DNA of 64,000 bases, taken from assembly GCF_003852525.1 (NCBI RefSeq), contig NZ_QAJL01000003.1, forward strand, positions 1,340,134 through 1,404,133, in the 5' to 3' direction. Positions 34,601 through 54,226 of the stretch are shown in pieces. Both the position numbers and the translations under genes were made by a program. The notes beneath the pieces were generated by a model. It did not search any database, was not told the DNA's origin, and worked only from the letters and a program-made list of their open reading frames with translations. Source of the stretch: Pedobacter sp. KBW06 (lineage in GTDB: Bacteria > Bacteroidota > Bacteroidia > Sphingobacteriales > Sphingobacteriaceae). Numbering within the stretch: position 1 is the first letter of the stretch; each line of letters begins with the position of its first letter.

Positions 34601-35237
34601 CTTTTGATTTATATCCGATATAGGAAACCACCAGGATCGCTTTGTCGTCTACCGCATGGAGTTCAAATGCGCCATCCGAATTGGTGATCGCCGTCTTTTT
34701 GGTGTTCTTGACCTGCACGGTCGCACCCGGTAAAGGCCCTCCTTTTTCATCAAGCACCTTCCCTTTCAGCTCAATAAAACTGATGTAATTTTTCATCTGA
34801 TCCAATACAGAGAAATCCTTTTTCTTGATTACGACCGTATTTTCAATGATCTTAAAGCTGAGGTCCTGCCCCTGAAAACAAGCCTCCAGCGCCTGCTCCA
34901 GTTTAACGTTCTCGAGATTCAGGTTTACTTTTTTTGCAGCTTTAATCAAATCACTATTGTACAGAAAAGTGAATTTTGTCTGTTTTCTGATCGATAATAA
35001 TACCCGCTGCAGACTGGCATTATTTTCATGCAGTGTCACACGCTGCCCAAAGGTGCTGGCCGCAGCCTGCAGCAACGATATGGCGATCATTATTGCTATC
35101 AAATTAATCCGCATAATAATTTGTCTTCTCGTTAAGGATTTGAGAGCCGAAATCCAGATATCAATGACATGAAATGGTTTAAAATATGGCGTAAGGCGTG
35201 GCCTGTCCATACTTGTTGAAGTATTAATAAAATACAT
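31617..35237 (-). CDS. STN-type SusC/RagA TonB-dependent transporter (module 1)
   Basis: This 1206-residue outer-membrane transporter has an N-terminal STN signalling domain (about 70-130, with LYNSDLIKAAKKVNLNLENV). A carboxypeptidase-like domain (about 150-235) and a plug with LYVLDGAPFEG and DATAASIYGARSANGVIVI follow, then the barrel. The STN domain contacts FecR in the periplasm and switches on the sigma factor when ligand is bound, as in FecA. The coding frame opens at 35237, but a signal peptide would begin at the internal Met at 35114 (MRINLIAIM), so the true start may be there. FecR and sigma genes lie directly upstream. Confidence 0.93.
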   Translation of the reverse strand: MYFINTSTSMDRPRLTPYFKPFHVIDIWISALKSLTRRQIIMRINLIAIMIAISLLQAAASTFGQRVTLHENNASLQRVLLSIRKQTKFTFLYNSDLIKAAKKVNLNLENVKLEQALEACFQGQDLSFKIIENTVVIKKKDFSVLDQMKNYISFIELKGKVLDEKGGPLPGATVQVKNTKKTAITNSDGAFELHAVDDKAILVVSYIGYKSKEVPANQENPMTITLEINSALLSEISVVSTGYQDIPKERAAGSFSVINADKDLSGKLQGNIMDRIEGMSAGLTSYKVGGVRKTQIRGISTISGETAPLYVLDGAPFEGDPQSINPADVESVTILKDATAASIYGARSANGVIVINTKRGKKGPLKISYDGTVKFTPLPDRGYANKMSSAELVDFQREMFNYRSGSYSAIDPRKAMNDVYKLFYEQREGHMTEAELQTALDVYRNNDRYDQVVSEFIRKTAIDQQHNLSLSGGSDFYTYNFSGNYMGSNPYDRVQSNNRIGFNFNNTLNLTKWLKLNIGVLGSKQNEDYDNGISGTGMLNTGKASYFMLRDAQGNPVNWLNSKSQFEINRLNGLRLQDENFAPVNEMNTKHLNNESNYLNINIGTNIKIIDGLSLNLLYQKERTDDYFKQYYTKNAYNVKTQINDATLIKPDGTVTNLIPVGGQLSEIRGDKNSHTLRAQVNFSKLFGKHRLEMIAGAEQRKILSTGTNIYKYGYDDYNLSYKLINEAALAVATLGTESINDRFQLTRLEKGFSSTENRFVSFYGNGSYTYDNKITASASIRMDQSNLFGTDPKYQYKPLWSAGLMYVISENQNDWLDRLIVRGTYGINGNISKLNGPYMITKDGGPNSNTNESQAYVQSPPNSGLRWEKTNVTNLAFDFSLLKNRFSGSVEFYNKSTSDLLGFQTTDPTIGWSSVMLNYGSMRNRGTDISLTSTNLTTNDFKWNTTLNFNYNKNVLTKLENEGKSVYSYLDRGQNRVGVPMNSIYSIRYKGLDDKGKPIALTKEGKEVKSTDQLTVSDLIHEGTATPPYAVSLSNSMSYKNFDLFFMFIYYGGHVMRDVYSPYLTKYAELNYTTNMDRSALNYWKKTGDESIPGIAPGFASAASSVITNIWEAGNQGIQRADYIKLRDITLSYNLANEFLKRNHVQRLRLSLQVQNAWRWSANKQNLDPEVWLGTTNSSAFSPLSPPTRGILLPPTYTFGLSANF

Positions 35238-35248
35238 ACATTTGTAAG

Positions 35249-35395
35249 GTTGGGTTAAATAAGTAAGGTCTATTGCTACGTGTTTTTCATCCCGATTTAT
35301 CGGAACAAATGGAAGAAATGGTTAGCCCAACATTGATCCTGGTATCAACAGGATTCCGACCGGGGAAGTGCTTCAACACTTTCCCGGTTATTTAT
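35249..35395 (+). ncRNA. Candidate cis-antisense small RNA, module 1
   Basis: On the plus strand TACATTTG (35237-35244) fits the -7 consensus TAnnTTTG, with TTG triplets 18-21 bases upstream. Three bases later come GGTT repeats at 35248-35251 and 35253-35256, an arrangement repeated in modules 2 and 3. A hairpin at 35359-35389 with a U-rich tail on the plus side could end a transcript of about 147 bases. It would be antisense to the fecR-susC junction. No expression data; alternatively the conserved block is part of an ECF-sigma promoter for susC on the other strand. Confidence 0.4.
35359..35395 (+). terminator. Hairpin between fecR and susC, module 1
   Basis: ACCGGGGAAGTG pairs with CACTTTCCCGGT (one wobble) around a six-base loop. 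TTATTTAT follows on the plus strand, while the minus-strand side is not T-rich, so it fits a plus-strand terminator. Confidence 0.5.
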
Positions 35396-35477
35396 AGGCC
35401 AACATTTCAAGCTTCCTACTCTTTGGCTGGTAAATTTCTATTCATCTTTTTTTAGTTTATGGTTTATGATCTGTTGA

Positions 35478-36641
35478 TTAAAGCGATACCACAATTTTAT
35501 TTCTGGTATTGGTTTGCTTTTCTATTTTAAATTTTACGTTCAGGTACCTCAGCATCTCCAGGAAAGCGGCAGCATTGACGCTTCTTGGCACCTCTCCTGT
35601 AAATAAGGTTGGCGGAATGTTGCCATCGTAAACGACGTCTACATTGTACCACCTGGAAGCCTGGCGCATCACGCTCTTTAAATCGGTATCGTTAAAAAGG
35701 AACAAGCCGTTTTTCCAGCTCATCACTTCTTCTGTGTTGACTTTGAGCACAGACAACCTGTCTTTCAGCACGGCCTGCTCTCCGGGTTTAAGCAACACGC
35801 CCTCTTTTACCTTTGCAGGTTCAGAGACTTTCACGCGGCCTTCCAGTAAGGTGGTCCTTACCGCTGGTTCATCGGTATAGGCATTGACGTTAAAATGTGT
35901 GCCCAGCACTTCGACTTCCTGTTTGTCTGTCATGACGATGAAAGGAACACGCTCCTGTTTTCCTTTTTCTTCTTTTAGCTGTTTGGCGACTTCAAAATAA
36001 GCCTCTCCTTTTAGTTCTACTTTACGCTCATTGAGGTGGTCAAAGGTCAGCGGGAACCTCAGGGAAGATCCTGAGTTTAACCAGACGTTGGTGCCATCCG
36101 GCAAGACAACCTGGTATTGCCCACCGTATGGTGTAGTGATGGTATTGTAGGAATTGGGTTTATTTACATTTGAAAGGTGATAAACCAACCGGCCATCCTT
36201 GGATTTGGAAATGTTTACTCCAGACTGACTGGCAAGGGATCCGTTCTTCGCGTCCGACAAGGAAATCTCCGTTCCATTGTCAAGTGTCAGGATCGCCCGG
36301 TTTCCACCAGGCACTATTGTTTTGGCAACGACCAGCTGTTCTGCATCGCTGTTTGCGGGTGTTTTCGATAAATAAAAAATGATTCCTGCAGAGAGACTAA
36401 GCAACAAAACTGCAGCAGCGGCCAGCTTTGGCCATAAAGAAATCCGGCGGGGACCTTCTTCCGGCAGCTCTAACCTTTCCCAAACCTCATCCAGATCATG
36501 ACTCCGGTCCTCCATGCTTAAATCTTCATTTAAACTGGCTGTCCTGCTCAGATGCCAGCTTTCTAACAGCGCCTGCTCTTCTTCAGTACAATTACCGGAT
36601 AGGTACCTGTCTAATAGTTCTTTTGCATCTGGTTTTTTCAT
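35478..36641 (-). CDS. FecR family anti-sigma factor (module 1)
   Basis: This 387-residue inner-membrane protein passes the signal from SusC to the sigma factor. A short cytosolic part (about 1-68) is followed by a membrane helix (about 72-92), then a periplasmic FecR domain (about 110-290) with GGQYQVVLPDGTNVWLNSGS and ELKGEAYFEV. A DUF4974 C-terminal domain (about 315-387) includes SVMRQASRWYNVDVVY; it binds the STN domain of SusC. Its sigma factor is encoded 103 bases upstream and SusC 240 bases downstream. A small stem-loop lies just before its start. Confidence 0.93.
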   Translation of the reverse strand: MKKPDAKELLDRYLSGNCTEEEQALLESWHLSRTASLNEDLSMEDRSHDLDEVWERLELPEEGPRRISLWPKLAAAAVLLLSLSAGIIFYLSKTPANSDAEQLVVAKTIVPGGNRAILTLDNGTEISLSDAKNGSLASQSGVNISKSKDGRLVYHLSNVNKPNSYNTITTPYGGQYQVVLPDGTNVWLNSGSSLRFPLTFDHLNERKVELKGEAYFEVAKQLKEEKGKQERVPFIVMTDKQEVEVLGTHFNVNAYTDEPAVRTTLLEGRVKVSEPAKVKEGVLLKPGEQAVLKDRLSVLKVNTEEVMSWKNGLFLFNDTDLKSVMRQASRWYNVDVVYDGNIPPTLFTGEVPRSVNAAAFLEMLRYLNVKFKIEKQTNTRNKIVVSL

Positions 36642-36648
36642 AATCAGA

Positions 36649-36667
36649 AAGGGCCATGGTTGCCCTT
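36649..36667 (-). other. Stem-loop just upstream of fecR start (module 1)
   Basis: AAGGGC and GCCCTT pair around seven bases, ending eight bases before the fecR ATG, where a ribosome would bind. It could dampen translation of fecR, but the stem is short and similar stems were not found in modules 2 and 3. Confidence 0.25.
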
Positions 36668-36744
36668 ATAAAACAACAGACAGGTAAGTTGGCCGGAGGG
36701 GGTAAATAAAAATGAAAAAAAATTTAGGGAGGCCGCTCTTAGAC

Positions 36745-37323
36745 TTAATAATGAGAAATTAAAAACAGGAACACCATCAAACCCAGCTTGATTCTCAATA
36801 TTTTCAAAGCATGTTGTACGTGTTTCCTTACCGTTTGCTCAGAAAGATCCAGCTGTTCTGCAATTTCCTTGTGGCTCAACTGGGATTTTCTGCTGAGCTC
36901 AAAAACTTCCCTCATCTTAGGAGGTAAAGCAGAGATTTCCTTTTCGATCAGGACCGTCATTTGTTTTTCCCTGACCAAATGATCCGTCACACAAGCTCCT
37001 TCATCGATAAAAGCCTGCAGAGAACTCAAGTATTGGGAAGCGATCTTCCGATGGGAAATCGCATTGAAGACACGGTTTCGAATCGCAGCATACAGATAAG
37101 CAGATAGATTTTCCGGGAAAGACAAGCTTTCACGTTTGGTCCATAAAGTGGTAAAAAGCTCATGAACAATGTCCTTCGCTTCCTCACGATCCTGCATCCA
37201 CTTATACGCATGGATGTGCAACAGCCATATATACCTGTTGTAAATTTCTGTATAGGCTTTTCTATCCCCCGACTTTAATAACCCGGCCAGTTCGTTGTCC
37301 GATATCGCCTGATAATTAAGCAT
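36745..37323 (-). CDS. ECF RNA polymerase sigma-70 factor (module 1)
   Basis: This 192-residue sigma factor is of the Bacteroidota FecI-like group. Region 2 (about 20-95) has FTTLWTKRESL and LSAYLYAAIRNRVFN. Region 4 (about 125-180) has LPPKMREVFELSRK and the DNA-contacting helix-turn-helix LSHKEIAEQLDLSEQTVRKH. A hydrophobic C-terminal tail (GLMVFLFLISHY) is usual in this group. It is held by the FecR encoded downstream and presumably drives the susC operon of module 1. Start by ATG at 37323. Confidence 0.93.
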   Translation of the reverse strand: MLNYQAISDNELAGLLKSGDRKAYTEIYNRYIWLLHIHAYKWMQDREEAKDIVHELFTTLWTKRESLSFPENLSAYLYAAIRNRVFNAISHRKIASQYLSSLQAFIDEGACVTDHLVREKQMTVLIEKEISALPPKMREVFELSRKSQLSHKEIAEQLDLSEQTVRKHVQHALKILRIKLGLMVFLFLISHY

Positions 37324-37342
37324 TTTTGTAATCTCCCCAGGG

Positions 37343-37371
37343 CGAATATAGTAATTATAGGCTTATTCAAA
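37343..37371 (-). promoter_or_regulatory. Candidate promoter of sigma factor gene (module 1)
   Basis: On the minus strand TTTG and TATATTCG lie 17 bases apart, one base off the -7 consensus, about 20 bases before the sigma ATG. The -33 part overlaps the T-run of the module 2 terminator. Confidence 0.4.
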
Positions 37372-37411
37372 AAAGAACTCCCATACCGGATAACCAATAT
37401 GGGAGTTCTTT
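37366..37411 (-). terminator. Terminator of module 2
   Basis: AAAGAACTCCCATA pairs fully with TATGGGAGTTCTTT around a 12-base loop, and on the minus strand a T-run follows. It ends module 2 and insulates the sigma gene of module 1. Confidence 0.85.
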
Positions 37412-37427
37412 GTCATGCTGTTATGGC

Positions 37428-38555
37428 TTATTTCATCAACTCTTCCAGCTTTTTATGCAGTTCCTCTCCTCTAAGGTTGGCGGCAACAATTTTTCCCGCA
37501 GGGTCAATCAGGTAATTCTGTGGAATCCCCTTTACACCATATAGTTTTGATGCCGCGTTGTTCCAGCCTTGAAGGTCACTCAACTGAGTCCAGGTCAGTC
37601 CATCTGTTTTAATCGCATTTAACCAGTTGTCCTTCTTTCCCGGCTGATCCAGAGAAACACCAAGAACGGTAAAGTTCTTCTCTTTATACTTGTTATAGGC
37701 AGCCACTACATTTGGATTTTCCGCACGACAAGGTCCGCACCATGATGCCCAGAAATCCAGCAACACATACTTTCCACGGAACTCAGAAAGCTTAACCGGC
37801 TTATCGTTCACATCATTCTGCGTGAAATCAGGCGCAAGCGCACCCACTGCAGTAGACTTCGCAATCTCGATTTGTTTAGCAAAATCTAATCCGGCCTTAC
37901 TTTCTCTCAGACGCTTGGTTAGCGCTAAAAACTTAGGCTCTACTTTAGCCACCTCCATATCATACTCCGAAGATTCCTTTAAAGCCACCAGACTAAAATA
38001 AGAATCCGGATGCTGCACGATAAAACCTTCCTGAATTTTCAACTTTTCGTCCGCCGCCGGCTTATGTCTGCTTTGCAAGCTCTTTACAAATTCTTCTTTT
38101 TGCTTTTGTTCATTGCTCGCCGCCGCCCATTCTGCATTCAGTCCGTTAATGATCTTTTCAGGCGCTGCAACTGCTTTTAAATATACTGCGTGCTCGGCAT
38201 TGATCGGAGATCCCGTGATCAGCGCATTTTTTACGGAATCTTTGGCTTTTAAAGCAATCTCTCCTTTATCCAGGTAAAATGACAGGACATCCGGATTTTT
38301 TGAAGCTACATTTGTTCCCGAATGATCAAAAGTAATTTTAGCAGAGGTGGGCCCGGAAACCTGCCCTTTGAAGTTAAAAGCGCCGTTTTTAAGGACAGCG
38401 GAATCCTTAACCATGGCCCCATCCTGACGATAGCTCAGGTAAGCTTTTGAACCAGCAGCGGCCTTTGCTACTGCTCCTTTTAAATTAAATGCGGCATTTT
38501 GCGCATTGGCCAATACCGGAACGGCACATATTAGTGTTAAAACTAACTTTTTCAT
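37428..38555 (-). CDS. TlpA-like thioredoxin with DUF4369 (module 2)
   Basis: This 375-residue secreted oxidoreductase has a signal peptide (1-19), a DUF4369-type beta domain (about 22-118) and a charged helical linker (about 125-235). The TlpA/ResA-type thioredoxin domain (about 236-375) has WCGPC, with Cys273 and Cys276, and a GIPQNYLID cis-proline loop. Such proteins usually reduce disulfides in the periplasm, being fed by a DsbD-type protein. It is closely similar along its whole length to the 46705 protein and is the intact counterpart of the broken 27708 gene. It is the last gene of module 2, 41 bases after the metallopeptidase-like gene. Confidence 0.9.
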   Translation of the reverse strand: MKKLVLTLICAVPVLANAQNAAFNLKGAVAKAAAGSKAYLSYRQDGAMVKDSAVLKNGAFNFKGQVSGPTSAKITFDHSGTNVASKNPDVLSFYLDKGEIALKAKDSVKNALITGSPINAEHAVYLKAVAAPEKIINGLNAEWAAASNEQKQKEEFVKSLQSRHKPAADEKLKIQEGFIVQHPDSYFSLVALKESSEYDMEVAKVEPKFLALTKRLRESKAGLDFAKQIEIAKSTAVGALAPDFTQNDVNDKPVKLSEFRGKYVLLDFWASWCGPCRAENPNVVAAYNKYKEKNFTVLGVSLDQPGKKDNWLNAIKTDGLTWTQLSDLQGWNNAASKLYGVKGIPQNYLIDPAGKIVAANLRGEELHKKLEELMK

Positions 38556-38596
38556 TTTGTTGATTGATTTGGTTGAATTATTAATTATTAATTTTC

Positions 38597-39517
38597 TTAC
38601 TTGTAAGCGTCGAACCGCTCCCTATAGGTATTGCCCATCGCCTGAATGTCCCAGCCCTCCGACAGAAGATAGGTGACAAAGGCTTCATACTTTTTAGCCC
38701 TGGCCGGACTATTATCAAGGTATTTTCTTTTGATGTTTTCTTTTGATTCCAATGCCAGCAACCTCAGCCAGGAAGAGAAATCGTTCTCAAAAGAACTGGA
38801 GCCTGAAGCTTCAATAAATCCTCCTGTCATGGCCAGCAACTCATATGCGGCATCTCTCTTTTCAACGTCTTTATCTTTATCATACTCTTTTCTGATCTTA
38901 TCCACAGCAGCACCACTATCATAGGCCTTTCCTGCATCTGCAAATGCTTTTACCGGTTCGGGAATGCGCAACGTAATCATCGAAGAGAGTTGTGCCCATA
39001 TGGCATTGCTCAACACAGAATCCTGATAATAATGTCGCTCGGGATTCAGCACAGGCAAAGCATTGGTCATTTGATTTGGCCAGCAGATCACAAGCCTGCT
39101 CCTGCCTATCTTTTTGATATTCTCCGCAAAATATCCCCTTCCATAGCTTTTCACAAAGAATAATTCGAGTGGAAAAAATGTTTTTGCATATTTCGGATTC
39201 ACACCAGACATCAATGCCTTCGTGTAAAGAATGGCGCTCTGTCGTTCCTGATCGGCGATTTTTTCCACGCCAAAGCGATTGTATGGATCGTTATCAAGAA
39301 TCGCATTCGTCACTTCTTTCCAATCCTTAAAGTCCATCCGCATCCAGACATTATAACTCTGGTACAATTCCTTCACCGCAGGATCTGCATCCGCCGCAGG
39401 CGAAAAGGCATTTTCAAATTTTAAATCTTCCGTAGAATTGAGCACTTCTTCCTTTTTGCAGGACCACAGCAACACTGCCAGACTAAAGGCTATAAAGTAT
39501 CTGTTTTTTAAGTTCAT
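38597..39517 (-). CDS. Mx1-metallopeptidase-like lipoprotein lacking HExxH (module 2)
   Basis: This 306-residue lipoprotein has a lipobox ending at Cys20 (LLWSCKKEE). The C-terminal GGFIEASGSSSFENDFSSWL, followed by a K-x-V-TYLLSEGWDI-type helix, resembles the end of the putative zinc metallopeptidases (Peptidase_Mx1) often found after SusC/SusD. Where that family has HEFxH, this protein reads NAIWAQLSSMI, with no zinc-binding histidines. It is thus a likely non-catalytic relative, perhaps a binding subunit. This family link is my inference from pattern only; it could be an unrelated lipoprotein. It fills the variable slot between SusD and TlpA of module 2. Confidence 0.6.
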   Translation of the reverse strand: MNLKNRYFIAFSLAVLLWSCKKEEVLNSTEDLKFENAFSPAADADPAVKELYQSYNVWMRMDFKDWKEVTNAILDNDPYNRFGVEKIADQERQSAILYTKALMSGVNPKYAKTFFPLELFFVKSYGRGYFAENIKKIGRSRLVICWPNQMTNALPVLNPERHYYQDSVLSNAIWAQLSSMITLRIPEPVKAFADAGKAYDSGAAVDKIRKEYDKDKDVEKRDAAYELLAMTGGFIEASGSSSFENDFSSWLRLLALESKENIKRKYLDNSPARAKKYEAFVTYLLSEGWDIQAMGNTYRERFDAYK

Positions 39518-39539
39518 GTCTTTTAAATTTAGGCTAAGC

Positions 39540-40997
39540 TTATCTCTTGTTTAATGGCATTTCCGGGCTATTGATTTGTTCCGATAAAGGGATCTGAAGG
39601 ACATAGCGGGGATCTTTCTCTTTTAAAGTATATACCTGTCCGTTTTTATAACTATGCGTTATAGAAGGCTTGCCCAATCTCCTCAGGTCAAACCACCTCA
39701 ACCCTCCTTCAAATGCCATTTCAATCCTACGCTCTTCATAAATGCGTTTTAGAAGCTGGTTCTTATCTGCAAAGTCGGCCAATTTCAAGGGTACAAACTC
39801 CTCTTTCTTAATCCTGTTGACCAACAGATGATTCAAATCTGTAACCGCCAGTTCCAAACGGCCCAATTTGGCATAAGCTTCAGCACGCATCACATAGGCC
39901 TCACTCACTTTGAGTCCGATATGATAACTGCCGTTTTCCTGCTTGGCAAACATGTTATAAATGGTAGGCCCCGTCTGAATGCCATCCGCAGTGCTCAGGT
40001 CAGCAAAAGAATCGAAAATAAACCTTCTGTAATCCTTAACACCGTTCCGACGACATAAGTCTAACAGCTCAACGGATGGCTTACTGGCGGCCCTGTCATG
40101 GTAAAAAATATTGTTATTTGCTTTTCCGGCCATAAAGAACAAGATCTCGTTCTTATAATCAGAATCAATCATTCCATAATTATTTGTAAAAGCTTCGCTT
40201 TCCCGATCCTTCCCATCAATATGTGCCTGGGTCTCATTCATATTAAATAAGCCCCTGGTATTCATCACAACAGTTGATGCGGCAATGGCACCTTCATGAT
40301 CTCCCATGAAAAGATTTACCCTCGCCTTGAACAATTGAAGCGAATTGTAATTGAAGCGAAACTTACTTTTCAGTGGTTTCCCCATCAGCAGTGCCGAGGC
40401 CTGATCAATGTCCGTCTGTATCTGAGCCCATACTTTCTCAATGGATGCCCTGACATTATTTTGTGTGTTTTGATGGATGTCGACAGCTGTTAAGGGCATA
40501 GGTACCCCCGGCTCTGCCAACGTTTCCGGCGCATAAACATCCGCATATAAGTTTACGAGATAGAAATAACTGAAGGCCCTCAATGCATATGCCTCTCCTT
40601 TTACCGTTTCAAAAAGCACCTTTTCCGAAGAAGAAGGAATGCGTTTGGAAAATTCATCCAACACCGTATTTGCATAGTACACGGATTTGTACAACTGCCC
40701 CCAATAAGGATCATCAGCCACTCCTGCCAACTGATGAGTTGATGCCCAGACAAACCAGGGTTCATCAGCGCGGTTCAGCGTATTACTTGTTTGCAGGTTG
40801 ACAAAAGCATTATCCGTCATGAGTTCTGTTTTAAAATAGAAATCCTGCTTCGGGTATCCTCCAAGTAATACAGATTCATAGTCGGCAATCGTTACCGGCA
40901 TCATGCTGTTGACCGGCTTGATGTCGAGCATTTTCTGGCAGCCGGAAGACAACAGAACCAGCATACCTATAAAATTCAAATAAAATATCTTTTTCAT
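39540..40997 (-). CDS. SusD/RagB family lipoprotein (module 2)
   Basis: This 485-residue outer-membrane lipoprotein has a lipobox ending at Cys20 (LLSSGCQKM). It opens with LDIKPVNSMMPVTIADYESVL and contains VKGEAYALRAFSYFYLVNLY. The C-terminal RIYEERRIEMAFEGGLRWFDL is the SusD hallmark. It forms the surface lid of the SusC encoded 11 bases upstream. The ligand is unknown; the module has no glycoside hydrolase. Confidence 0.93.
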   Translation of the reverse strand: MKKIFYLNFIGMLVLLSSGCQKMLDIKPVNSMMPVTIADYESVLLGGYPKQDFYFKTELMTDNAFVNLQTSNTLNRADEPWFVWASTHQLAGVADDPYWGQLYKSVYYANTVLDEFSKRIPSSSEKVLFETVKGEAYALRAFSYFYLVNLYADVYAPETLAEPGVPMPLTAVDIHQNTQNNVRASIEKVWAQIQTDIDQASALLMGKPLKSKFRFNYNSLQLFKARVNLFMGDHEGAIAASTVVMNTRGLFNMNETQAHIDGKDRESEAFTNNYGMIDSDYKNEILFFMAGKANNNIFYHDRAASKPSVELLDLCRRNGVKDYRRFIFDSFADLSTADGIQTGPTIYNMFAKQENGSYHIGLKVSEAYVMRAEAYAKLGRLELAVTDLNHLLVNRIKKEEFVPLKLADFADKNQLLKRIYEERRIEMAFEGGLRWFDLRRLGKPSITHSYKNGQVYTLKEKDPRYVLQIPLSEQINSPEMPLNKR

Positions 40998-41008
40998 AAT
41001 TTCAAGCT

Positions 41009-44584: not shown

Positions 44585-44596
44585 TACATTTGGGTG

Positions 44597-46587: not shown

Positions 46588-46603
46588 GATTTCCCTCAAT
46601 GAT

Positions 46604-46660
46604 AAAAAAAAAATACCAAGCTACCAATAATCGCAGGGAGCGCTGCGATTATTGGTAGCT
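46604..46660 (-). terminator. Strong terminator of module 3
   Basis: AGCTACCAATAATCGCAG pairs perfectly over 18 bases around a six-base loop. On the minus strand TTGGTA and ten T follow. A further stem CTCAATGA/TCATTGAG (46595-46602 with 46662-46669) could close around it. Confidence 0.85.
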
Positions 46661-46704
46661 GTCATTGAGCATGTTCCATTAAGATGGAAAAGGGGTAGTA
46701 TCCC

Positions 46705-47832
46705 CTATTTGGAAAGTATGCTTTTCAACTTCTCCTGAAGCGCTTCGCCCCTCAGGTTCTTTGCAATAATTTTTCCATTTGGATCAATCAGGTAGTTTTG
46801 AGGGATGCCCTTGATGCCGTACATCTTTGATACCGCATTGTTCCACCCATTCAGATCACTCAATTGTGTCCAGGTCAGCGCATCTGCTTTGATGGCCTTT
46901 AACCAGGCTTCTTTTTCTCCAGGCTGATCCAGAGAAACGCCTAGCACCGTAAAGTTCTTATCTTTGTATTCCGTATAAGCCTTAACGACATTCGGGTTTT
47001 CCGCACGACAAGGGCCACACCAGGAAGCCCAGAAATCCAGCAATACATACTTTCCACGAAAATCAGAAAGCTTAACAGCCTTGTCATTGACATCATTTTG
47101 CGTGAAATCAGGTGCCACAACACCAACTGCCGTAGCTTTCTCAATTGCAATCTGTTTGGTAAAGTCCAGCCCTTCCTTACTTTCTCTCAGACCTTTAGAT
47201 AAACGCAGGAATAAAGATTCAGCTTTATCCACCTCCATCTCTCCGGACAATTCCTTTAAAGCCTGCAGACTAAAATAAGAATCAAGGTGCTGCCCGATAA
47301 AGGCCTCCTGAATCTTCGCCTTTTCTTCTGAGGCAGGCTTGTATCGATCCTGCAAACCCTTCATAAATTCCTCTTTTTCTTTCTGCTCCTTACTTGCTCC
47401 CGCCCAATCAGCATTGATTCCCGCAATTATTTTCTCCGGACCTGCAATCGCTTTCCGGTATAACGCATGAGCTGTATTGATCGGGGAACCCGAGATCACC
47501 GCATTCTTTACAGAATCCCTGCTTTTCAATTTCAGCATTCCTTTATCCAGATAAAGCGATAACACATCCTGATTTTTTACCGAGCGGCCAGCTTCCTGAT
47601 GTTCTAAGATAATTTTGGCTGAACTGGGGCCGGAAATCTCCCCCTTAAAAGTAAAGACTCCGTTTTTTAACACGGTCGAATCTTTTACCATGGCCCCATT
47701 TTGCCGGTAACTCAGGTAAACTCTTGATTTGGCTCCCGCCCCCGCTATTTCTCCCTGTACATGGAACGCCACATTTTGTGCATAAGACATTACCGGCAGG
47801 GCAGCTATTAATGTGAAGATTATTTTTTTCAT
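46705..47832 (-). CDS. TlpA-like thioredoxin with DUF4369 (module 3)
   Basis: This 375-residue secreted oxidoreductase has the same length and layout as the module 2 protein: signal peptide (1-19), DUF4369-type domain, helical linker, and a TlpA-type thioredoxin domain with WCGPC near residue 273 and a GIPQNYLID loop. The two proteins are alike over nearly every segment, so they arose by duplication. Differences gather in the linker (about 140-220). It is the last gene of module 3, with a strong terminator after it. Confidence 0.9.
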   Translation of the reverse strand: MKKIIFTLIAALPVMSYAQNVAFHVQGEIAGAGAKSRVYLSYRQNGAMVKDSTVLKNGVFTFKGEISGPSSAKIILEHQEAGRSVKNQDVLSLYLDKGMLKLKSRDSVKNAVISGSPINTAHALYRKAIAGPEKIIAGINADWAGASKEQKEKEEFMKGLQDRYKPASEEKAKIQEAFIGQHLDSYFSLQALKELSGEMEVDKAESLFLRLSKGLRESKEGLDFTKQIAIEKATAVGVVAPDFTQNDVNDKAVKLSDFRGKYVLLDFWASWCGPCRAENPNVVKAYTEYKDKNFTVLGVSLDQPGEKEAWLKAIKADALTWTQLSDLNGWNNAVSKMYGIKGIPQNYLIDPNGKIIAKNLRGEALQEKLKSILSK

Positions 47833-47943
47833 AACTATCGTTTGTTTTTTATTGTTTTAAGTGCTTTTTATTCATTTTAATTTCCTTCGGAACTTGTATT
47901 CCAAATTTGCCTACTATGACCAAGCTCATGATCCTTCCTTTTT

Positions 47944-48972
47944 TTATTTCCTGAGTCTGATCCCGTCCAGGCAGAAATAAGGAGGAACAGGTGTAGAAGA
48001 AGAAAGATGAAATACGAGTTTATCTACCGTTCCTAAAGTTGCCAATCCTACTTTGAACCAATCCTGCTGTACATAATTTAATTCCGGATTTGCAGGATCT
48101 ACTTTTGGCCGGATGGCCAGCCAATAATCCACATTTCCAGTGGGCGTTCCGGCCTTAAAGCCTTTCACCGTCAATTTCACGTACCCCTTTGAAATGCCTT
48201 CCGCAGCCTTAGTTGAATCCGCTTTTACTGCGGCTTCCGGTTTTCCGGCGAGTCTTGCAGACTCCGCTGCCGTATGTCCCGCCTGTGCCTTGGCCAGGTT
48301 TTCTTCCCCCGATAGCCGGATCACATTTGTCCCCCCGGGCCCCGGTAAACTAAAGCGGCCATAACGCGTGGTAGAAGTATTGGCAATGAGGATGTTTTTA
48401 ACCTTCCCTCCCGTCATCAGGTACGTCTGAGTCTTTGGATCCAGCGTTCCTGAATAAGCAGAACCATAAGATTCCAGCAATACATTGTAAGTCGTATTGG
48501 CCACCAGGATGTGTTCCACCACCCCTGGTTTTTCCAGGGTAATGGCTGCATCTTCATCCTTTACACTCGCCACCAGGTAACTTCCCGTCTGGTTTGGTTT
48601 GGAAGTAAATACACTAAATATCGTGGAATCTATGCTCGCCTGCTTTTGAGCAGCCGTTAAGCCTCCCACAGGCGCAAAATCAGGACTCAGGTTCCATGGA
48701 TAAGAACGCCAGTTCTTATTCGACAGCGCAAAGCCGCTGAACGTTCCATCCCCATTCTTTTTCACATTTACAGTAATTCTTCCGCTTCGATCATTTCCTA
48801 CCTGAAATGGAGCGTCTGGAATCCTGTACGAGAATTCAGGAAGACCTTGTTCTTCAAAAGTAATGTCATCCGGATAGGGAATCCGGATTTCCTTTTTCTC
48901 TTTTGAGCAGGAAAAGAAAGAGAGCATCGCTGCCGCAATCAGCAGCATTCTATAAGAAAAGTTCTTTTTCAT
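47944..48972 (-). CDS. DUF4465 surface lipoprotein (module 3)
   Basis: This 342-residue lipoprotein has a lipobox ending at Cys22 (SFFSCSKEK). DUF4465 features are GFALSNKNWRSYPWN, NTTYNVLLESYGSAYSG, and the C-terminal VQQDWFKVGLATLGTVDKL plus PPYFCLDGIRL, which form a beta-sandwich like carbohydrate-binding modules. Family members are surface ligand-binding proteins next to SusC/SusD. An Ala/Lys/Glu-rich stretch (about 225-262, with AAESARLAGKPEAAVKAD) interrupts the domain and looks like an inserted helix. It fills the variable slot of module 3. The ligand is unknown. Confidence 0.82.
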   Translation of the reverse strand: MKKNFSYRMLLIAAAMLSFFSCSKEKKEIRIPYPDDITFEEQGLPEFSYRIPDAPFQVGNDRSGRITVNVKKNGDGTFSGFALSNKNWRSYPWNLSPDFAPVGGLTAAQKQASIDSTIFSVFTSKPNQTGSYLVASVKDEDAAITLEKPGVVEHILVANTTYNVLLESYGSAYSGTLDPKTQTYLMTGGKVKNILIANTSTTRYGRFSLPGPGGTNVIRLSGEENLAKAQAGHTAAESARLAGKPEAAVKADSTKAAEGISKGYVKLTVKGFKAGTPTGNVDYWLAIRPKVDPANPELNYVQQDWFKVGLATLGTVDKLVFHLSSSTPVPPYFCLDGIRLRK

Positions 48973-48986
48973 ATGTTCAGTATTGT

Positions 48987-50480
48987 CTATTTTAAATCTG
49001 GGTTTTGTACCATCAAAGTATTGTTAACCATTTCCACACGCGGGATGGGCCAGCAGAGTTTATTCAGCTCAAAGGCTTTGTTCTCCTTAATGGCAACAAT
49101 CCAGGGTTGTCCATCTTTTTTGAAGCGGACAGTAGCAAACATTTCGCTTCCATTTTCCATAAAGAGCTCCATAAAAATTTCTTTAAAGATCAGGTCCATC
49201 AGTTCCTCCGAATTTTGCGGGTTTAAAGGCGCCAATACAGGATTCGTTCTTTTGGAACGCATCTCATTGATTGGAGCAATCGCCGTTGAAATTGCAGCTC
49301 CCGTTCTTGCCAGTAACTCCGCCTTCATCAGGTACAATTCTGAATACCTGAAATAATAGGCCGCATACTTTTCATCCTTCGGATTCGCTTGTGCCCCCGC
49401 ATACCTGCCCAACCTCGCCAGTTTTTTGAAGCAGTAACATTGTTTATCGTCCCAGGTTTCCGGTGCACGTACCGCTCCGGTAACTATTGGCCATCTGGGG
49501 TCTGCTTTAAACCAATCTGCGCCGTATTTCAGTCCGGCTGTTAAAGTTTTATCTATCGGTAAAGGCAGGCGGTCACCCCCATAAATAATTCCATAGGTAT
49601 AGGTAAAACCACCTTTGGAAGCCCTGGAACCATCATCTTCCAGATACCTTACAAAAAGATTCTCTTTGGAATCCCATGCATTGCTATACACCTCAGCTAG
49701 GTTAGATTCCATGGCAAAAGAAGCGGAAGGATTGGCCAGGATTTCGTTTACCAATGTCAAAGACAATTGAAGATCCGCAACCGTATTCCGGTATCCTCCA
49801 CGGTACAGCAATAATTTCGCCTTCAATGCTTTTGCAAATTGCTTTGACAGGTAACGCGGAGAACTGAACTCCCCTAAGTTTGCAATGGCATAATCCAGGT
49901 CCTCATAAATTTTCTGATAGCTTTCCCCTACAGTGGAGCGGGCTTTCAACACATTTTTAAGACTAATCACTTCATCCCTGTAAATGATGCCATACGCATC
50001 TGCATCTTCGGCCCACCAATGACCAAAATTCCAAAGCAAATTGGCATGAATCCAGGCCCTCAGACACCTGCCTTCCGCCAGCATAGCCGTCCTTTCCGGG
50101 AGGGGGACTGCAGCGTCTGATAATTTACCAATTCCCTGAATGGCAAAGTTTGCCGCATTCAGGCTCTTATAAAAACTCTGCCAGATCACAGGTATATTTG
50201 TTCCGGGATTCGACTCGTTATAAGTCAGGTCATAATCCGTCTGCGCCGTAATATTTACAAAGCCCGATTTTGTGGCCTGTGCCACATAAAGTGCTCCCGA
50301 CCAACTGTCGTTCTGAAAACTGGCATACACCCCTCCAAGGGCTGCTTTTGCAGTACTCAAATCTTTAATCGCATTATCGCCGGTAAGGGAATGCAAAGGT
50401 TGCTCATCCAGGAAATCTTTGCAGGATGGCAAAGCAGAACCAATGAACAGCAGGAGTATAAAATATAATTTCTTTTTCAT
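48987..50480 (-). CDS. SusD/RagB family lipoprotein (module 3)
   Basis: This 497-residue outer-membrane lipoprotein has a lipobox ending at Cys20 (SALPSCKDF). It contains DFLDEQPLHSLTG near the start and LAEGRCLRAWIHANLLWNF. The C-terminal RSKRTNPVLAPLNPQNSEEL and IFKEIFMELFMENGSEMFATV replace the usual ERRIEL helix in a slightly divergent form. It works with the SusC encoded 100 bases upstream and lies 14 bases before the DUF4465 gene. Confidence 0.9.
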   Translation of the reverse strand: MKKKLYFILLLFIGSALPSCKDFLDEQPLHSLTGDNAIKDLSTAKAALGGVYASFQNDSWSGALYVAQATKSGFVNITAQTDYDLTYNESNPGTNIPVIWQSFYKSLNAANFAIQGIGKLSDAAVPLPERTAMLAEGRCLRAWIHANLLWNFGHWWAEDADAYGIIYRDEVISLKNVLKARSTVGESYQKIYEDLDYAIANLGEFSSPRYLSKQFAKALKAKLLLYRGGYRNTVADLQLSLTLVNEILANPSASFAMESNLAEVYSNAWDSKENLFVRYLEDDGSRASKGGFTYTYGIIYGGDRLPLPIDKTLTAGLKYGADWFKADPRWPIVTGAVRAPETWDDKQCYCFKKLARLGRYAGAQANPKDEKYAAYYFRYSELYLMKAELLARTGAAISTAIAPINEMRSKRTNPVLAPLNPQNSEELMDLIFKEIFMELFMENGSEMFATVRFKKDGQPWIVAIKENKAFELNKLCWPIPRVEMVNNTLMVQNPDLK

Positions 50481-50580
50481 CAGTATATATTTGTTTTTTT
50501 ATCGGTGATGAAGCGATCATGATCCTGATATACAATTCGTTGTGTAATCTGTAAGATCATGATGGTTTCATCAGGATAGC

Positions 50581-53500
50581 CTATTTAAAAGTGAACTTAA
50601 TGCCTAGATTGTAATTTTTTGCCGATGGGTAATAGCTGCCATCAATCCCCATTCCCGTGCCTATAGCACTGGAGGACCAGTTTCCCTGAGGATCAAAGCC
50701 CGGATAACGCGTTAAAGTAAAGAGGTTACTCGCCTGGAAAGTCAGGTCAATTCCCTGAATGATTTTGTCTTTAAACATTTTTTCCGGCAAACGGTAGCTG
50801 ATGTTCAACGCACTAAGCCTTACATAAGAAGCATCATACAGCCAAAAATCGGAGAACTCTCCATTTTCACCCAGTCCATAAGGTGTGATCCTTGGCATGG
50901 AAGCCTCATAAGGACTTAATAAAGTAGCACTTCTACCAGCAATCAGGTTACTATGATTATAACTTCCCATATACCCGGCATCATCCATTGGCATGCTCCA
51001 AAGACGTTTATTGCCGTAAGCATAAGTGAACGTGCCATTGATCATAAAGCTTTTATAAAAAAAGGTCATCCCGAATCCCCCGAACAGCTTGGGATCTGAA
51101 CTTCCTAATTTCACCCGATCGTCTGCGTTGATGATTCCATCACCGTTCTGGTCTATAAAATAAAGATCTCCCGGATTTTCGGCCGCATCCCGGTAATATT
51201 GCTTTGTGCCCACAGACTTCCTTCCCTGAAGGGCGATGACCTCTTCAGCCGTCACAAATAAGCGGTTTGCCGTTTGATAACCAAACCATTGACCTGTCCT
51301 TTCTCCCTCTTTCACTTTCATATACGTCGTAACATCACTCGGGAAATTAAGCTCCCTCGTCACCCCGTTAATCTGCATAATCCGATTGTTGTTTCTTGCC
51401 GCATTAAAATCAAGCGTCAGGGTAAAATCTGTTCTTTTCAAAACATCAACACTGACATCGAACTCCATTCCGTTATTCTTCAATGAAGCAACATTAGAAC
51501 TGACGCTGTTAAAGGAAGTACTCGAAGGCAAAGGTTTGCTATAAATCAATTTGTCTGTTTTTTTCTGGTAAATACCGAAAGAGCCCCGAACCCGTTCATC
51601 CCAAAGCCCAAAGTCAAGCCCTAAATCTGTCATTTGGGTTTGCTCCCATTGCAAGTCATTATTTCCTATCGAGTTCGGTGCAATCGCAGGGTTTTCATTA
51701 TACCTGGACGAGCCAACCCGGGTCATCCAGTCGTAATCTCCAAGGTTTTGCGATCCCGCCTTTCCCGTTGAAGCCCTTAATTTCAAATAGGAAATGACTT
51801 TACGCAGCTTTTCATTTTTCATAAAATCTTCCTCTGTGATGAGCCAGGCTACCGCTGCAGAAGGAAAAATCCCCCAGCGCTTATCCGGTCCAAAACGGGA
51901 GGAACCATCACGGCGAACCGTTCCTGAAAGGATATACCGGTTGTTATACTTGTATTGCAACCTTGCAAACTGGGAGATCAGCCCGCTTGCTGTATAGCTC
52001 TCCCCAAGAGCTCCCCTCGTTGCTGCAGAGGGAAAGTCATTCAGGATGTCATCATCAGGAAAATTCGTGCCTTCCATACTATAGCCCAACGCAGTATTCT
52101 TCTCCATGGAGTAACCTGCCAGCCCCAATACGTCATGCTTTCCAAATGTCTTGGCATAGGTCAGCGTGTTTTCCCAGACACTCGTCTGGTTCTTGTTATT
52201 GCTCCAGGATCTGCTCCCTTCCGTATTAAAAGTACTGCCCCGGCGATCGTAATCCAATCGCTGTGTATTTGCATAATTGGCAGTATAAGCCGTTCTTAAC
52301 AGCAGTCCGTCCAGAATGCTATATTCCAGAAATCCAGTTCCATTAAACAATTGTCCCGATCCGGATCTGGTATTCAGAAGTGTGGTGTATGGATTTTCAG
52401 TATAGGCATCCTTAGTGAACAAAGTTCCATCAGGATTGTAAACAGGGATATCCGGTCTGATCTTTTTCAGCACATCCAACATATAATCCTTATTGTTGGT
52501 ATTTCTGGTAGAACCGCTTAGATTCAGGCCAAATTTAAAACCCTTTCTTAATTTAGCTTCCAGGTTAAGCCGACCACCATACAGCTTGCTTCCTCCCGTT
52601 TTTACAATACCATCCATATTGGTATTGTTCAGGGAAACATAGTATGCGATATTTTTAGTTCCGCCCCTTAGAGAGACATCATGCTGCTGTGTCAATGGAT
52701 TCCGGGTCATTTCCTTCATCCAATTGGTGTTTCCCTCATAATATGCACCCTTTAGTTTTTTAAGGTCACTGGCTTTGAACTCACTGGTATTCAAGCTAAA
52801 AAAAGCCTGCTCATCAAGGAACAATCTCGTAAAGTAGTCGAAACCTCCCTGATTCATCACCTCAGCCCTTGCCGCTATATCTGCAAAATGCTCATATTCC
52901 GGCCCCTCCATATATTTATAACCATTAAAATCCTGCCGCTGATAACCGAAGCGGGTAGAGACTTCAATCGTGGGATTCATCCCTTCTTTTCCTCTTTTAG
53001 TGCTGACAATCACCACTCCGTTTGCAGCTCTGGATCCATACAATGCCGTTGCAGAGGCATCTTTGAGGATGTCGATACTTTCTACATCATTCAGGTTCAG
53101 GTTATATAGAGAATTGGCAATGTTTCCGGAGGTAGCCGTAGAATAATCCGGAACGCCGTCAATAACCCATAACGGCTGGTTATTTCCGGAAAGGGAGGAG
53201 GCACCCCTGATCACTACACTGATCGGAGAAGTTGGTGAAGCCGACTGGATCGCCACGTTTACCCCGGAGGCCTTACCTTGTAATAAGCTTTGAATCGTGG
53301 AACCCATTGGGGCATTTTGCACTTCTTTTTGTCCAAGACTGGCAATAGATCCGGCGATGTCCTTCTTTTTTGCGGTACCATAGGCCATCACCACAATCTG
53401 TTCCAAAGAACCCAGATTTTCTTCCAGTACGATGTGCAGCTCGCTCGCCCCTTTCAGTGCAATTTCTTTTTGCTTATAACCAATGAAAGAAACGATCAAC

Positions 53501-54099
53501 ACCGCTTTATCGTCGACATTTTTCAGCTCAAATTCTCCCTGAGCATTGGTCATCACCGCCTTCCCGGTCTCCTTTACCTTTACAGTGGCTCCTGGTAAAG
53601 GTTGTCCTTTTGCATCGGTGACCCGGCCTTTCAGCTCTTTTGGAGGGAGCGCCGCGGTTGTTTTGGCTTCTTTCCCCGGGGAAATCCTCTGGGCAATCAC
53701 AATCGTTTTATTCTCTATGCTATAATCAAAAGGCTGGTCCCTGAAGCATAAAAGCAAAACTTCAGAAAGCTCAGCTTTCACCACATTCAGCGTAACTGGT
53801 TTTGCCGAACGCAACAGGCTAAAATTATAGAAGAACACATAACCGGTTTGTTTTTTGATGGAGGAAAAAACTTTTTCCAATGGCACATCTTTTCCGGTAT
53901 AGGTCACCGTTTGTGAATAGCTGCTGGCAAAAACGTTCATCACGACCAAGGTTGTCAGAAAAAAGGTGAGTTTCATAATCAGTCCTAGTTGAGCTGAAAA
54001 CTGCAGTTTTAGCATACGAGAAACCGGATGCCAAAATCTTTGTAAGTCATCATCATGGCGACCACTTTTCAGGCGGTCACCAGGTATAAAAAAAATCAT
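50581..54099 (-). CDS. STN-type SusC/RagA TonB-dependent transporter (module 3)
   Basis: This 1172-residue outer-membrane transporter has a signal peptide starting at the internal Met at 53976 (MKLTFFLTTL) and an STN domain (about 65-130) containing FFYNFSLLRSAKPVTLNV. A carboxypeptidase-like domain (about 155-235) and a plug with LWVIDGVPDY and DASATALYGSRAANGVVIV follow, then the barrel. The frame is open from 54099; the first 41 residues lack family likeness, so the real start may be internal. It partners SusD (48987) and signals through FecR (54250). Confidence 0.93.
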   Translation of the reverse strand: MIFFIPGDRLKSGRHDDDLQRFWHPVSRMLKLQFSAQLGLIMKLTFFLTTLVVMNVFASSYSQTVTYTGKDVPLEKVFSSIKKQTGYVFFYNFSLLRSAKPVTLNVVKAELSEVLLLCFRDQPFDYSIENKTIVIAQRISPGKEAKTTAALPPKELKGRVTDAKGQPLPGATVKVKETGKAVMTNAQGEFELKNVDDKAVLIVSFIGYKQKEIALKGASELHIVLEENLGSLEQIVVMAYGTAKKKDIAGSIASLGQKEVQNAPMGSTIQSLLQGKASGVNVAIQSASPTSPISVVIRGASSLSGNNQPLWVIDGVPDYSTATSGNIANSLYNLNLNDVESIDILKDASATALYGSRAANGVVIVSTKRGKEGMNPTIEVSTRFGYQRQDFNGYKYMEGPEYEHFADIAARAEVMNQGGFDYFTRLFLDEQAFFSLNTSEFKASDLKKLKGAYYEGNTNWMKEMTRNPLTQQHDVSLRGGTKNIAYYVSLNNTNMDGIVKTGGSKLYGGRLNLEAKLRKGFKFGLNLSGSTRNTNNKDYMLDVLKKIRPDIPVYNPDGTLFTKDAYTENPYTTLLNTRSGSGQLFNGTGFLEYSILDGLLLRTAYTANYANTQRLDYDRRGSTFNTEGSRSWSNNKNQTSVWENTLTYAKTFGKHDVLGLAGYSMEKNTALGYSMEGTNFPDDDILNDFPSAATRGALGESYTASGLISQFARLQYKYNNRYILSGTVRRDGSSRFGPDKRWGIFPSAAVAWLITEEDFMKNEKLRKVISYLKLRASTGKAGSQNLGDYDWMTRVGSSRYNENPAIAPNSIGNNDLQWEQTQMTDLGLDFGLWDERVRGSFGIYQKKTDKLIYSKPLPSSTSFNSVSSNVASLKNNGMEFDVSVDVLKRTDFTLTLDFNAARNNNRIMQINGVTRELNFPSDVTTYMKVKEGERTGQWFGYQTANRLFVTAEEVIALQGRKSVGTKQYYRDAAENPGDLYFIDQNGDGIINADDRVKLGSSDPKLFGGFGMTFFYKSFMINGTFTYAYGNKRLWSMPMDDAGYMGSYNHSNLIAGRSATLLSPYEASMPRITPYGLGENGEFSDFWLYDASYVRLSALNISYRLPEKMFKDKIIQGIDLTFQASNLFTLTRYPGFDPQGNWSSSAIGTGMGIDGSYYPSAKNYNLGIKFTFK

Positions 54100-54110
54100 A
54101 CATTTGTTAG

Positions 54111-54226
54111 GTTTAGGTTGAAGAATAAGGTTTGTTGAACATTTTTTATTGAATTAAACCTGGACAGGGGACCTTCTTAAAAAGATCCTTCGCCAGGAGT
54201 GTTGCAAGCGCTCCTGGCTTTCTTTT
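54111..54226 (+). ncRNA. Candidate cis-antisense small RNA, module 3
   Basis: On the plus strand TACATTTG (54099-54106) is followed after three bases by GGTT repeats at 54110-54113 and 54116-54119. A strong terminator at 54192-54226 closes a possible transcript of about 116 bases, antisense to the fecR-susC gap. This is the best of the three candidates because its terminator has a clear T-run on the plus strand only. No -33 element is evident. Confidence 0.45.
54192..54226 (+). terminator. Rho-independent terminator between fecR and susC, module 3
   Basis: GCCAGGAG pairs with CTCCTGGC around an 11-base loop, followed by TTTCTTTT on the plus strand. On the minus strand the tail begins GAAGG, so it points to a plus-strand transcript. 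Confidence 0.7.

Follow-up and report, generated by a model that had tools for sequence, protein, structure and literature searches.

Organization of the three modules

The window analysed here, a stretch of 64,000 nucleotides, contains three sugar-uptake modules in which an ECF sigma factor gene, a fecR (anti-sigma) gene and a susC homologue all lie on the minus strand. In module 1 the sigma factor is at 36745-37323, fecR at 35478-36641 and susC, with STN, carboxypeptidase-regulatory and plug domains, at 31617-35237. The corresponding genes are found at 45988-46599, 44724-45917 and 41009-44584 in module 2, and at 55517-56110, 54250-55452 and 50581-54099 in module 3. On the plus strand, a promoter-like box (TACATTTG) lies on each susC start, at 35237-35244, 44585-44592 and 54099-54106, and is followed by a predicted antisense RNA of 148 nt (35249-35396, z -5.8), 93 nt (44597-44689, z -4.3) and 116 nt (54111-54226, z -3.9), respectively; these sizes agree with the range of 93-147 given in the initial annotation of this DNA. 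The predicted +1 was set 5 nt past the box, following the -12 to -5 spacing in the available text of PMC9723704. In all three cases the predicted RNA is encoded on the strand facing a susC homologue whose locus is linked to an ECF sigma/anti-sigma pair, and this susC is its presumed target. An Rfam scan of the window gave 0 matches.

The -7 box on the susC start codon

TAnnTTTG is the -7 box of the primary sigma factor of Bacteroidota. The initial annotation reported TACATTTG-N3-GGTT on the plus strand at 35237, 44585 and 54099, and the pattern is indeed present there. The same annotation placed a promoter and a terminator between fecR and susC; this layout holds, with the correction that the box overlaps the susC start codon. 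The start codons begin at 35237, 44584 and 54099 on the minus strand (ATG at 35237-35235, 44584-44582 and 54099-54097), and at all three sites the susC coding strand reads CAAANNTATG at the box. When up to one mismatch is allowed, TACATTTG-N3-GGTT has 5 matches in the window compared to 0.52 expected from shuffles. The exact pattern occurs seven times in the 8.1 Mb genome, while its reversed control does not occur; five of the seven are on fecR-linked susC starts (the three window sites, L096 and L098) and the remaining two (L095 and L097) are inside unrelated ORFs. Exact TACATTTG is too narrow for the true element, because its two middle bases vary (CAAANNTA), and the GGTT spacing alone is not specific, since the strict pattern CATANNTTTGN3GGTT gave 7 genome matches compared to 2 in the control.

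For a genome-wide comparison, 18 of 112 FecR_C matches that lay inside TBDR-length frames were dropped (hand-picked), as was L008, which has no adjoining TBDR frame. Control receptors were taken from 150 Plug matches listed of 237 candidates; 91 did not appear to be linked to fecR, 81 of these passed a distance filter, and the first 40 were used. Of the 75 fecR-TBDR pairs with gaps of at least 80 nt, 51 have CAAANNTA at precisely one of three offsets (-7, -3 or -8) from the first in-frame ATG; at these offsets it occurs in none of the 18 fecR-susC gaps below 80 nt in the same genome, none of 242 other ORF starts (at least 150 aa, same DNA) and none of the 40 TBDRs (TonB receptors) without fecR. 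There are two main registers relative to the susC ATG, -7 in 36 and -3 in 12 loci. In 17 of the 75 long-gap loci the box, even in a loose form, is absent at the fixed offsets. No -33 element (TTG) is visible in the 51 aligned promoters; the same is reported for Flavobacterium johnsoniae, as cited in the available text of PMC7366714. A generic sigma-70 scan of 35000-54999 gave 37 matches compared to 34.0 expected from shuffles. In codons 3-20 of susC, variation is spread evenly over first, second and third positions (32:31:32), so that the DNA, not the peptide, seems to be conserved there.

Terminators and strand bias

Hairpins with a U tail, described in the initial annotation as confined to the plus strand, were found there at 35358-35389 (U tail 35390-35396), 44649-44681 (U tail to 44689) and 54192-54218 (U tail 54219-54226). 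A generic terminator scan of 35000-54999 gave 22 matches compared to 21.8 from shuffles and picked up only the module 3 hairpin of the three. In the gaps themselves the strand bias is pronounced. After L022 (gap 526) was dropped from this count, hairpins of dG <= -14 with a T tail were present on the antisense strand of 59 of 74 gaps and on the sense strand of 3 (shuffles 0.6 and 0), and terminators of dG <= -10 in 65 and 7 of the 74 gaps, respectively. Within 200 nt upstream, antisense terminators of dG <= -10 occur at 65 of 75 fecR-linked receptors compared to 3 of 40 others, and sense terminators at 7 of 75 and 3 of 40. Base pairing points to the same strand. When hairpins are read as antisense RNA, the G.U:A.C ratio is 82:8 in 58 hairpins of this genome and 68:22 in 54 hairpins of its relatives, where shuffles give 64% and 63% G.U.

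The initial annotation also proposed to check whether box and terminator co-occur in fecR-susC gaps. This is so for 47 of the 51 loci with a box, a terminator of dG <= -10 missing in four; but an antisense terminator is also present in 18 of 23 long-gap loci without a box at the fixed offsets, and therefore the two are not strictly coupled there. Families f35, f15, f30, f37 and f21 have 0 boxes in 9 loci, with 3 antisense and 3 sense terminators. A U-turn (YUNR) motif is seen in the terminator loops of 19 of the 58 hairpins from this genome and 12 of the 54 from relatives.

Predicted RNA ends, closing helix and covariance model

The box-plus-terminator design gives 52 unique predictions in this genome, with a median RNA length of 104 (47 predictions). 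GGTT-n-GGTT, taken initially as part of the promoter, is better placed as the first transcribed bases, as predicted: in all three modules it pairs with the strand ahead of the terminator and closes the RNA at the predicted +1. In the predicted folds this closing helix, P1, joins 35249-35258 with 35322-35331, 44597-44605 with 44638-44646, and 54111-54119 with 54157-54165 (plus strand). Closing helix scores of at least 18 were obtained for 21 of the 52 predictions in this genome, compared to 254 of 2652 when partners were swapped and 2 of 52 for the sense strand; in relatives the figures are 21 of 64, 416 of 4032 and 1 of 64. The G.U bias of the closing helix is weak on its own (118:14 in 74 of 116 helices compared to 83% G.U expected, p 0.03). 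In an alignment (A1) of 14 loci, both sides have changed with the pair kept in some sequence for 13 of 19 consensus pairs, a count that partly reflects ancestry because the 14 leaders are related and from one receptor subfamily.

A covariance model, R1, was built from 14 other loci, with those of the window excluded. When the window was searched, the three sites were the top-ranked matches, at 35233-35395 (45.2 bits), 44580-44686 (25.3 bits) and 54095-54226 (39.6 bits). R1 also matches 37 of 66 further long-gap loci in this genome, all 37 on the antisense strand, and misses 29; of 40 control loci it matched one, weakly. L014 and L022 were absent from the first search of these loci, and their later addition gave no match. 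The initial proposal of a plus-strand unit antisense to the susC leader is thus supported by the position of the box, the terminator bias, the G.U to A.C ratio, the covariation and the covariance model search.

Recurrence in other Bacteroidota

Among the loci of relatives, L181 and L182 (no ATG), L217 (no downstream frame) and 34 loci with gaps below 80 or above 460 nt were dropped. The box-terminator design recurs in Mucilaginibacter, Chitinophaga, Niastella, Parabacteroides and Bacteroides, and both the box and the terminator of module 3 are also present in Pedobacter steynii (L198). The Bacteroidales set comprised 19 loci from 40 matches listed of 214 records, of which L287 (not adjacent), L294 (no frame) and six short-gap loci were dropped. 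Among these listed matches, a box at -7 and an antisense terminator are present in 6 of 11 long-gap loci (from Bacteroides, Parabacteroides, Phocaeicola and Segatella), with both features found in Bacteroides finegoldii and Parabacteroides distasonis. R1 matched two of the six (L301 and L288, Parabacteroides) and missed four, including both from Bacteroides. The Bacteroidota orders with this design number at least three: Bacteroidales, Sphingobacteriales (the Pedobacter relatives) and Chitinophagales (the Chitinophaga relatives). Recurrence in dozens of clusters of this Pedobacter genome and in other Bacteroidota suggests a widespread, little-studied switch of nutrient uptake.

Possible mechanism of susC silencing

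The promoter-like box, the terminator, their strand, the predicted structure and the conservation can be read directly from the DNA. From these we infer transcription, repression and the way in which repression may take place. The -7 box, joined to the susC start codon but lying on the other strand, would be read by the primary (housekeeping) sigma factor. Starting about 12 nt upstream of the susC ATG, transcription would cross the susC leader toward fecR until halted by the dedicated intrinsic terminator about 100 nt further on. The 5' end of the RNA (GGUUnGGUU) would pair just ahead of the terminator hairpin to give a closed form, in which both RNA ends would therefore be protected. As the predicted RNA is a full complement of the susC leader opposite it, the AACC-rich stretch next to the start codon included, it would most likely silence susC, and would do so while the cognate ECF sigma/FecR pair is off. 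Pairing with the leader may block ribosome entry or speed up decay, polymerases on the opposed promoter would assist, and induction of susC by the ECF sigma factor would outcompete the antisense RNA. A spaced-word search of the gaps for a sense ECF promoter of susC gave nothing clearly above shuffles, and thus the overlap of antisense RNA and susC mRNA is assumed. We consider it likely that a DonS-type gene for a cis-antisense small RNA is present in each module, where its product would most likely silence susC by these steps.

Other readings of the same features have been proposed or can be envisaged. The initial annotation offered the alternative that AACC-n-AACC-nnn-CAAATGTA, read on the minus strand, serves susC as its ECF sigma promoter, and the link of these susC genes to ECF/FecR, together with the lack of any other sense promoter motif found in the gaps, is in its favour. 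The motif fits this role poorly, however, as it ends on the in-frame susC start codon and not upstream of the gene, which would place the 5' end of the transcript within the gene. Among the 18 receptors with short gaps, all of them boxless at these offsets, 12 are also preceded by AACC, and the antisense terminators (65 of 74 gaps) and the strand bias of the pairs would be left unexplained; we regard a sense ECF promoter here as very improbable. The same low probability applies to CAAANNTATG as a translation-start context, with the hairpins as structure of the susC leader mRNA. CAAANNTATG does abut the start codon, and Shine-Dalgarno sites are missing from Bacteroidetes mRNAs according to the available text of PMC7366714, but it occurs at none of 242 other ORFs and none of 40 other TBDRs. 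The existence of two main registers (-7 in 36, -3 in 12), the U tails and G.U pairs favouring the antisense strand, and the even variation of codons 3-20, with DNA rather than peptide seemingly conserved, also argue against it.

It is also conceivable, but unlikely, that transcription itself is what matters, either through polymerase held at a promoter over the susC start or through collision, with the RNA a by-product or serving another role. This would account for a box over the start codon at fixed offsets, and some antisense RNA-PUL pairs correlate positively in the available accounts of B. thetaiotaomicron. If the RNA were a by-product, however, there would be no need for efficient termination about 100 nt downstream, nor for stems with a G.U bias, compensatory changes and a helix that closes the molecule.

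Relation to known small RNAs

DonS-type cis-antisense RNAs of susC have been reported in Bacteroides (PMC7366714, PMC10994844), and DonS and PUL-associated cis-antisense RNAs (Cao et al. 2016) are described in the citing papers PMC7366714, PMC10994844, PMC11697453 and PMC9723704. The repressor role proposed in the initial annotation rests on DonS of B. fragilis, as told by later papers. In B. thetaiotaomicron the reported correlations between antisense RNAs and PULs are both negative and positive, and the positive ones do not fit with simple repression. Like the DonS-type RNAs, those predicted here lie antisense to the susC homologue of a PUL; a candidate -7 element of the primary sigma factor (TAnnTTTG) is present at the three sites, as expected of a DonS-type promoter, and each RNA has a predicted intrinsic terminator. 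The reported sizes are 78-128 nt (passages of PMC7366714) compared to 93, 116 and 148 nt here, which places the module 1 RNA 20 nt above the range. With 52 predictions, this genome has more than B. thetaiotaomicron, where 32 are annotated, or B. fragilis, with 15 PULs, although predictions and annotations are different measures. The Bacteroides RNAs come from a different order and habitat than Pedobacter, and the likeness is drawn from descriptions of DonS and from other Bacteroidales loci. Judging by sequence features, the three predicted RNAs very probably belong to the DonS-type antisense RNAs as new members. No paper on antisense RNAs of susC outside Bacteroides was found among the matches listed in the open-licence literature; for Flavobacterium psychrophilum, 287 antisense transcripts are reported, with no PUL named among them in the available text of PMC9723704.

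According to the accessible part of a 2024 atlas paper, antisense RNAs of susC in gut Bacteroides need functional characterization. Defined by a start-codon box, a closing helix and a terminator, these RNAs have 5' and 3' ends that can be predicted from DNA alone, and the definition applies to dozens of loci in one genome. The role and mechanism of these RNAs thereby become testable in Pedobacter and against existing B. thetaiotaomicron 5'-end maps. We tentatively speculate, at somewhat less than even odds, that FecI/FecR-SusC systems throughout Bacteroidota have the antisense RNA as their third standard component, one structured RNA family and not chance transcripts, with a promoter welded to the susC start that imposes an N-terminal extension of the receptor conserved as DNA, not protein. 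If so, a sense/antisense switch would be built into every such locus, and dozens of them, each specific to its locus, would operate in parallel per cell.

FopS, GibS and MasB are also small RNAs of Bacteroides, and GibS and FopS feature in work on polysaccharide use. In the descriptions available, GibS and MasB are intergenic, unlike the antisense RNAs predicted here, while FopS members comprise nine intergenic, four antisense and one 3' UTR-derived RNA; all three are presented as genes in their own right rather than as companions of every fecR-susC pair.

A probable antisense promoter element on the susC start codon

Each of the three modules in the window contains an ECF sigma factor, a FecR and an STN-domain receptor of the SusC type; the FecR of module 3 has 89% identity to a FecR of P. 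steynii DSM 19110. The arrangement reported in the initial annotation, plus-strand TACATTTG-N3-GGTT-n-GGTT followed in the fecR-susC gap by a hairpin whose U tail is on the plus strand, is present exactly at all three (35237, 44585 and 54099), and the genes of all three modules lie on the opposite, minus strand, as described there. At up to one mismatch the motif has five matches in the window against 0.52 expected. The exact motif has seven matches in the genome, of which five are starts of fecR-linked susC genes and two lie within other ORFs, and its reversed control has none.

In the 8.1 Mb genome of the strain, a FecR_C search gave 112 matches, of which 94 were in FecR-sized frames and were taken with the downstream gene; the other 18 lie inside receptor-length frames. 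This left 93 analysable fecR-receptor pairs, of which 75 are separated by 80 nt or more (long-gap) and 18 by less (short-gap). On the coding strand, CAAANNTA lies at one of three exact offsets from the first in-frame ATG in 51/75 long-gap pairs (-7 in 36, -3 in 12 and -8 in 3), and a loose box, with C or T allowed as first base, is found in 58/75. At these fixed offsets the box was found in none of the 18 short-gap pairs (two carry it at another position close to the start), at none of 242 other ORF starts in the same DNA (at least 150 aa, first ATG), and at none of 40 TonB-dependent receptors that lack fecR, taken as the first 40 from a set of 81. On the opposite strand the box reads TAnnTTTG, which two reports (PMC7366714, PMC9723704) give as the -7 element of the Bacteroidota primary sigma factor; the second locates it from -12 to -5. 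As in the known element, the two central positions are variable, and the box has a constant form although the start codon occupies differing registers within it. The conserved thing therefore seems, from sequence, to be the box rather than the translation start.

Terminators and the strand predicted to fold

Of 74 gaps (80-330 nt), 59 have on the antisense strand, and three on the sense strand, a hairpin that ends in a T-rich tail and has a dG no higher than -14 kcal/mol, with 0.6 and 0 in shuffled sequences; at -10 or lower the counts were 65 and 7 (shuffles 13.0 and 0.4). Within 200 nt upstream of the receptor, the 40 genes without fecR have three antisense and three sense terminators, compared with 65 and 7 for the 75 linked to fecR. 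An antisense terminator (-10 or lower) is present in 47/51 loci that have the box at the fixed offsets and in 18/23 that do not. On visual inspection, several loci of the second group carry a box that is altered or displaced, so that mutual dependence of box and terminator cannot be demonstrated within this genome.

The hairpin finder scores G.T and A.C pairs equally, and its pairs were read on the antisense strand. On this reading G.T exceeds A.C by 82 to 8 in 58 hairpins of the genome (64% G.T in shuffles), a strong bias, and by 68 to 22 in 54 hairpins of relatives (63% in shuffles), a modest one; the p values, 4e-9 and 0.009, treat as separate pairs that share a stem and are not independent. 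This excess suggests that folding would take place on the antisense strand. A strong terminator-like hairpin of 18 pairs with a U tail also occurs on the minus (sense) strand at 46619-46660, immediately 5' to the sigma gene of module 2.

The predicted RNA

With +1 placed five bases past the box, the predicted RNAs of modules 1, 2 and 3 are 148, 93 and 116 nt long; across 47 predictions in the genome, lengths run from 56 to 149 nt with a median of 104 nt. For each of the three modules, the minimum-energy fold is predicted to open with a helix starting at +1, the closing helix P1, in which the GGUUnGGUU segment would pair with a strand that precedes the terminator hairpin. The three predicted RNAs have folding z-scores of -5.8, -4.3 and -3.9; their complementary strands score -2.6, -0.7 and -3.0. 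In a survey of 116 predictions, 52 from this genome (including the window's three) and 64 from relatives, the best P1 score was at least 18 in 21/52 and 21/64, in 254/2652 and 416/4032 when partners were swapped between loci, and in 2/52 and 1/64 on the sense strand. The modelled P1 thus stands out in many of the loci but not in every one.

P1 and the terminator stem can be seen when 14 related leaders are aligned, and 13/19 pairs have changes on both sides. A covariance model built from these leaders, which exclude the window's loci, ranks the three sites highest in the window, at 45.2, 39.6 and 25.3 bits for modules 1, 3 and 2; a fourth match, at 27645-27739 on the minus strand (15.0 bits, E 0.32), is probably due to chance. 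At E 0.1 it matches 37/66 further long-gap fecR loci of the genome, all on the antisense strand and 32 beginning no more than 12 nt from the called ATG, and 1/40 control receptors without fecR (E 0.048). It matches 14 of 24 selected loci of other taxa, comprising 12/13 outside Bacteroidales, 2/6 Bacteroidales loci with the box and 0/5 without. Box position, terminator strand, folding and model matches together back the earlier suggestion that the three modules carry putative antisense small RNAs.

Distribution and relation to known RNAs

The loose box and the antisense terminator (-10 or lower; sense terminators in brackets) occur in 17/20 and 18/20 (0) cases in the same genus, and in 3/6 and 6/6 (1) in another genus of the same family. 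For the named genomes, which include Pedobacter, Mucilaginibacter, Daejeonella, Niastella, Chitinophaga, Ferruginibacter and others, the counts are 36/45 and 40/45 (8). They are 9/9 and 9/9 (3) in family f20, 3/6 and 4/6 (0) in f18, 1/1 and 1/1 (0) in f28, and 0/9 and 3/9 (3) in f35, f15, f30, f37 and f21 combined. Eleven Bacteroidales loci from PLSDB have the receptor adjacent and a gap no shorter than 80 nt. In six of them (four in Parabacteroides distasonis, two in Bacteroides finegoldii) CAAANNTATG lies at -7, and every one of the six has an antisense terminator at or below -15; the remaining five lack both a box at -7 and any antisense terminator at the -10 threshold. The plasmid-labelled PLSDB records of Bacteroides finegoldii, Phocaeicola massiliensis and Parabacteroides distasonis TSDC17.2-1.1 (loci L284-L302) bear PULs, gpmA, cbiB and other genes, and resemble chromosome fragments.

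The closest known kind is the DonS family, cis-antisense RNAs of susC in Bacteroides, with which, compared by description rather than sequence, the predicted RNAs agree in size, place, orientation and gene partners; the box-terminator layout also recurs at loci of Bacteroides and Parabacteroides. Among the matches listed in the open-licence literature we found no report of such RNAs in Sphingobacteriales or Chitinophagales. We therefore class the window's candidates as probable additional members of the DonS kind, with an anatomy not met in that literature.

A primary-sigma promoter facing fecR would produce a stable closed RNA, fully complementary to its own susC mRNA leader, with its 5' end about 12 nt from the start codon. 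It would most likely act by blocking ribosome entry or by promoting decay of the leader; promoter occlusion or polymerase collision may be a helper, or a rival, to RNA pairing. DonS is reported to repress its PUL in B. fragilis by an unknown mechanism (PMC11697453), and 32 PUL antisense RNAs are annotated in B. thetaiotaomicron, where correlations with the PUL are both negative and positive (PMC10994844). Repression of susC is therefore likely, but not certain.

The susC leader and N-terminus

At least one AACC lies within 35 nt upstream of 51/75 long-gap, 12/18 short-gap and 44/242 other genes, and the AACC-rich leader (for example 35249-35262) is a feature separate from the box. Such leaders also precede susC where the antisense box is absent, as in the short-gap loci L071, L092 and L013, so they probably serve the mRNA itself. 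An ECF or other sense promoter motif for susC was looked for in the fecR-susC gaps of the genome and not found. Sense TAnnTTTG occurs in 1/75 of these gaps as against 11/40 within 200 nt upstream of receptors without fecR, a scarcity expected if fecR-linked genes use ECF promoters.

In codons 3-20 of fecR-linked receptors, variation is even across the codon positions, at 32:31:32 (144 alignment columns, eight groups of related loci), or 46:42:44 with a ninth, more diverse group added, and the reading frame is preserved; columns 61-200 have the usual third-position excess (289:210:708). On the simplest reading of these alignments, codons 3-20 are translated, but the constraint on them comes from their role as antisense-promoter DNA and not from the peptide. 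The SusC proteins of the window (starts 35237, 44584 and 54099) and of the genome's other long-gap loci have an N-terminal extension ahead of the signal peptide, in which variation is likewise even over the three codon positions, and most of the 40 receptors without fecR, judged by eye, start straight at the signal peptide.
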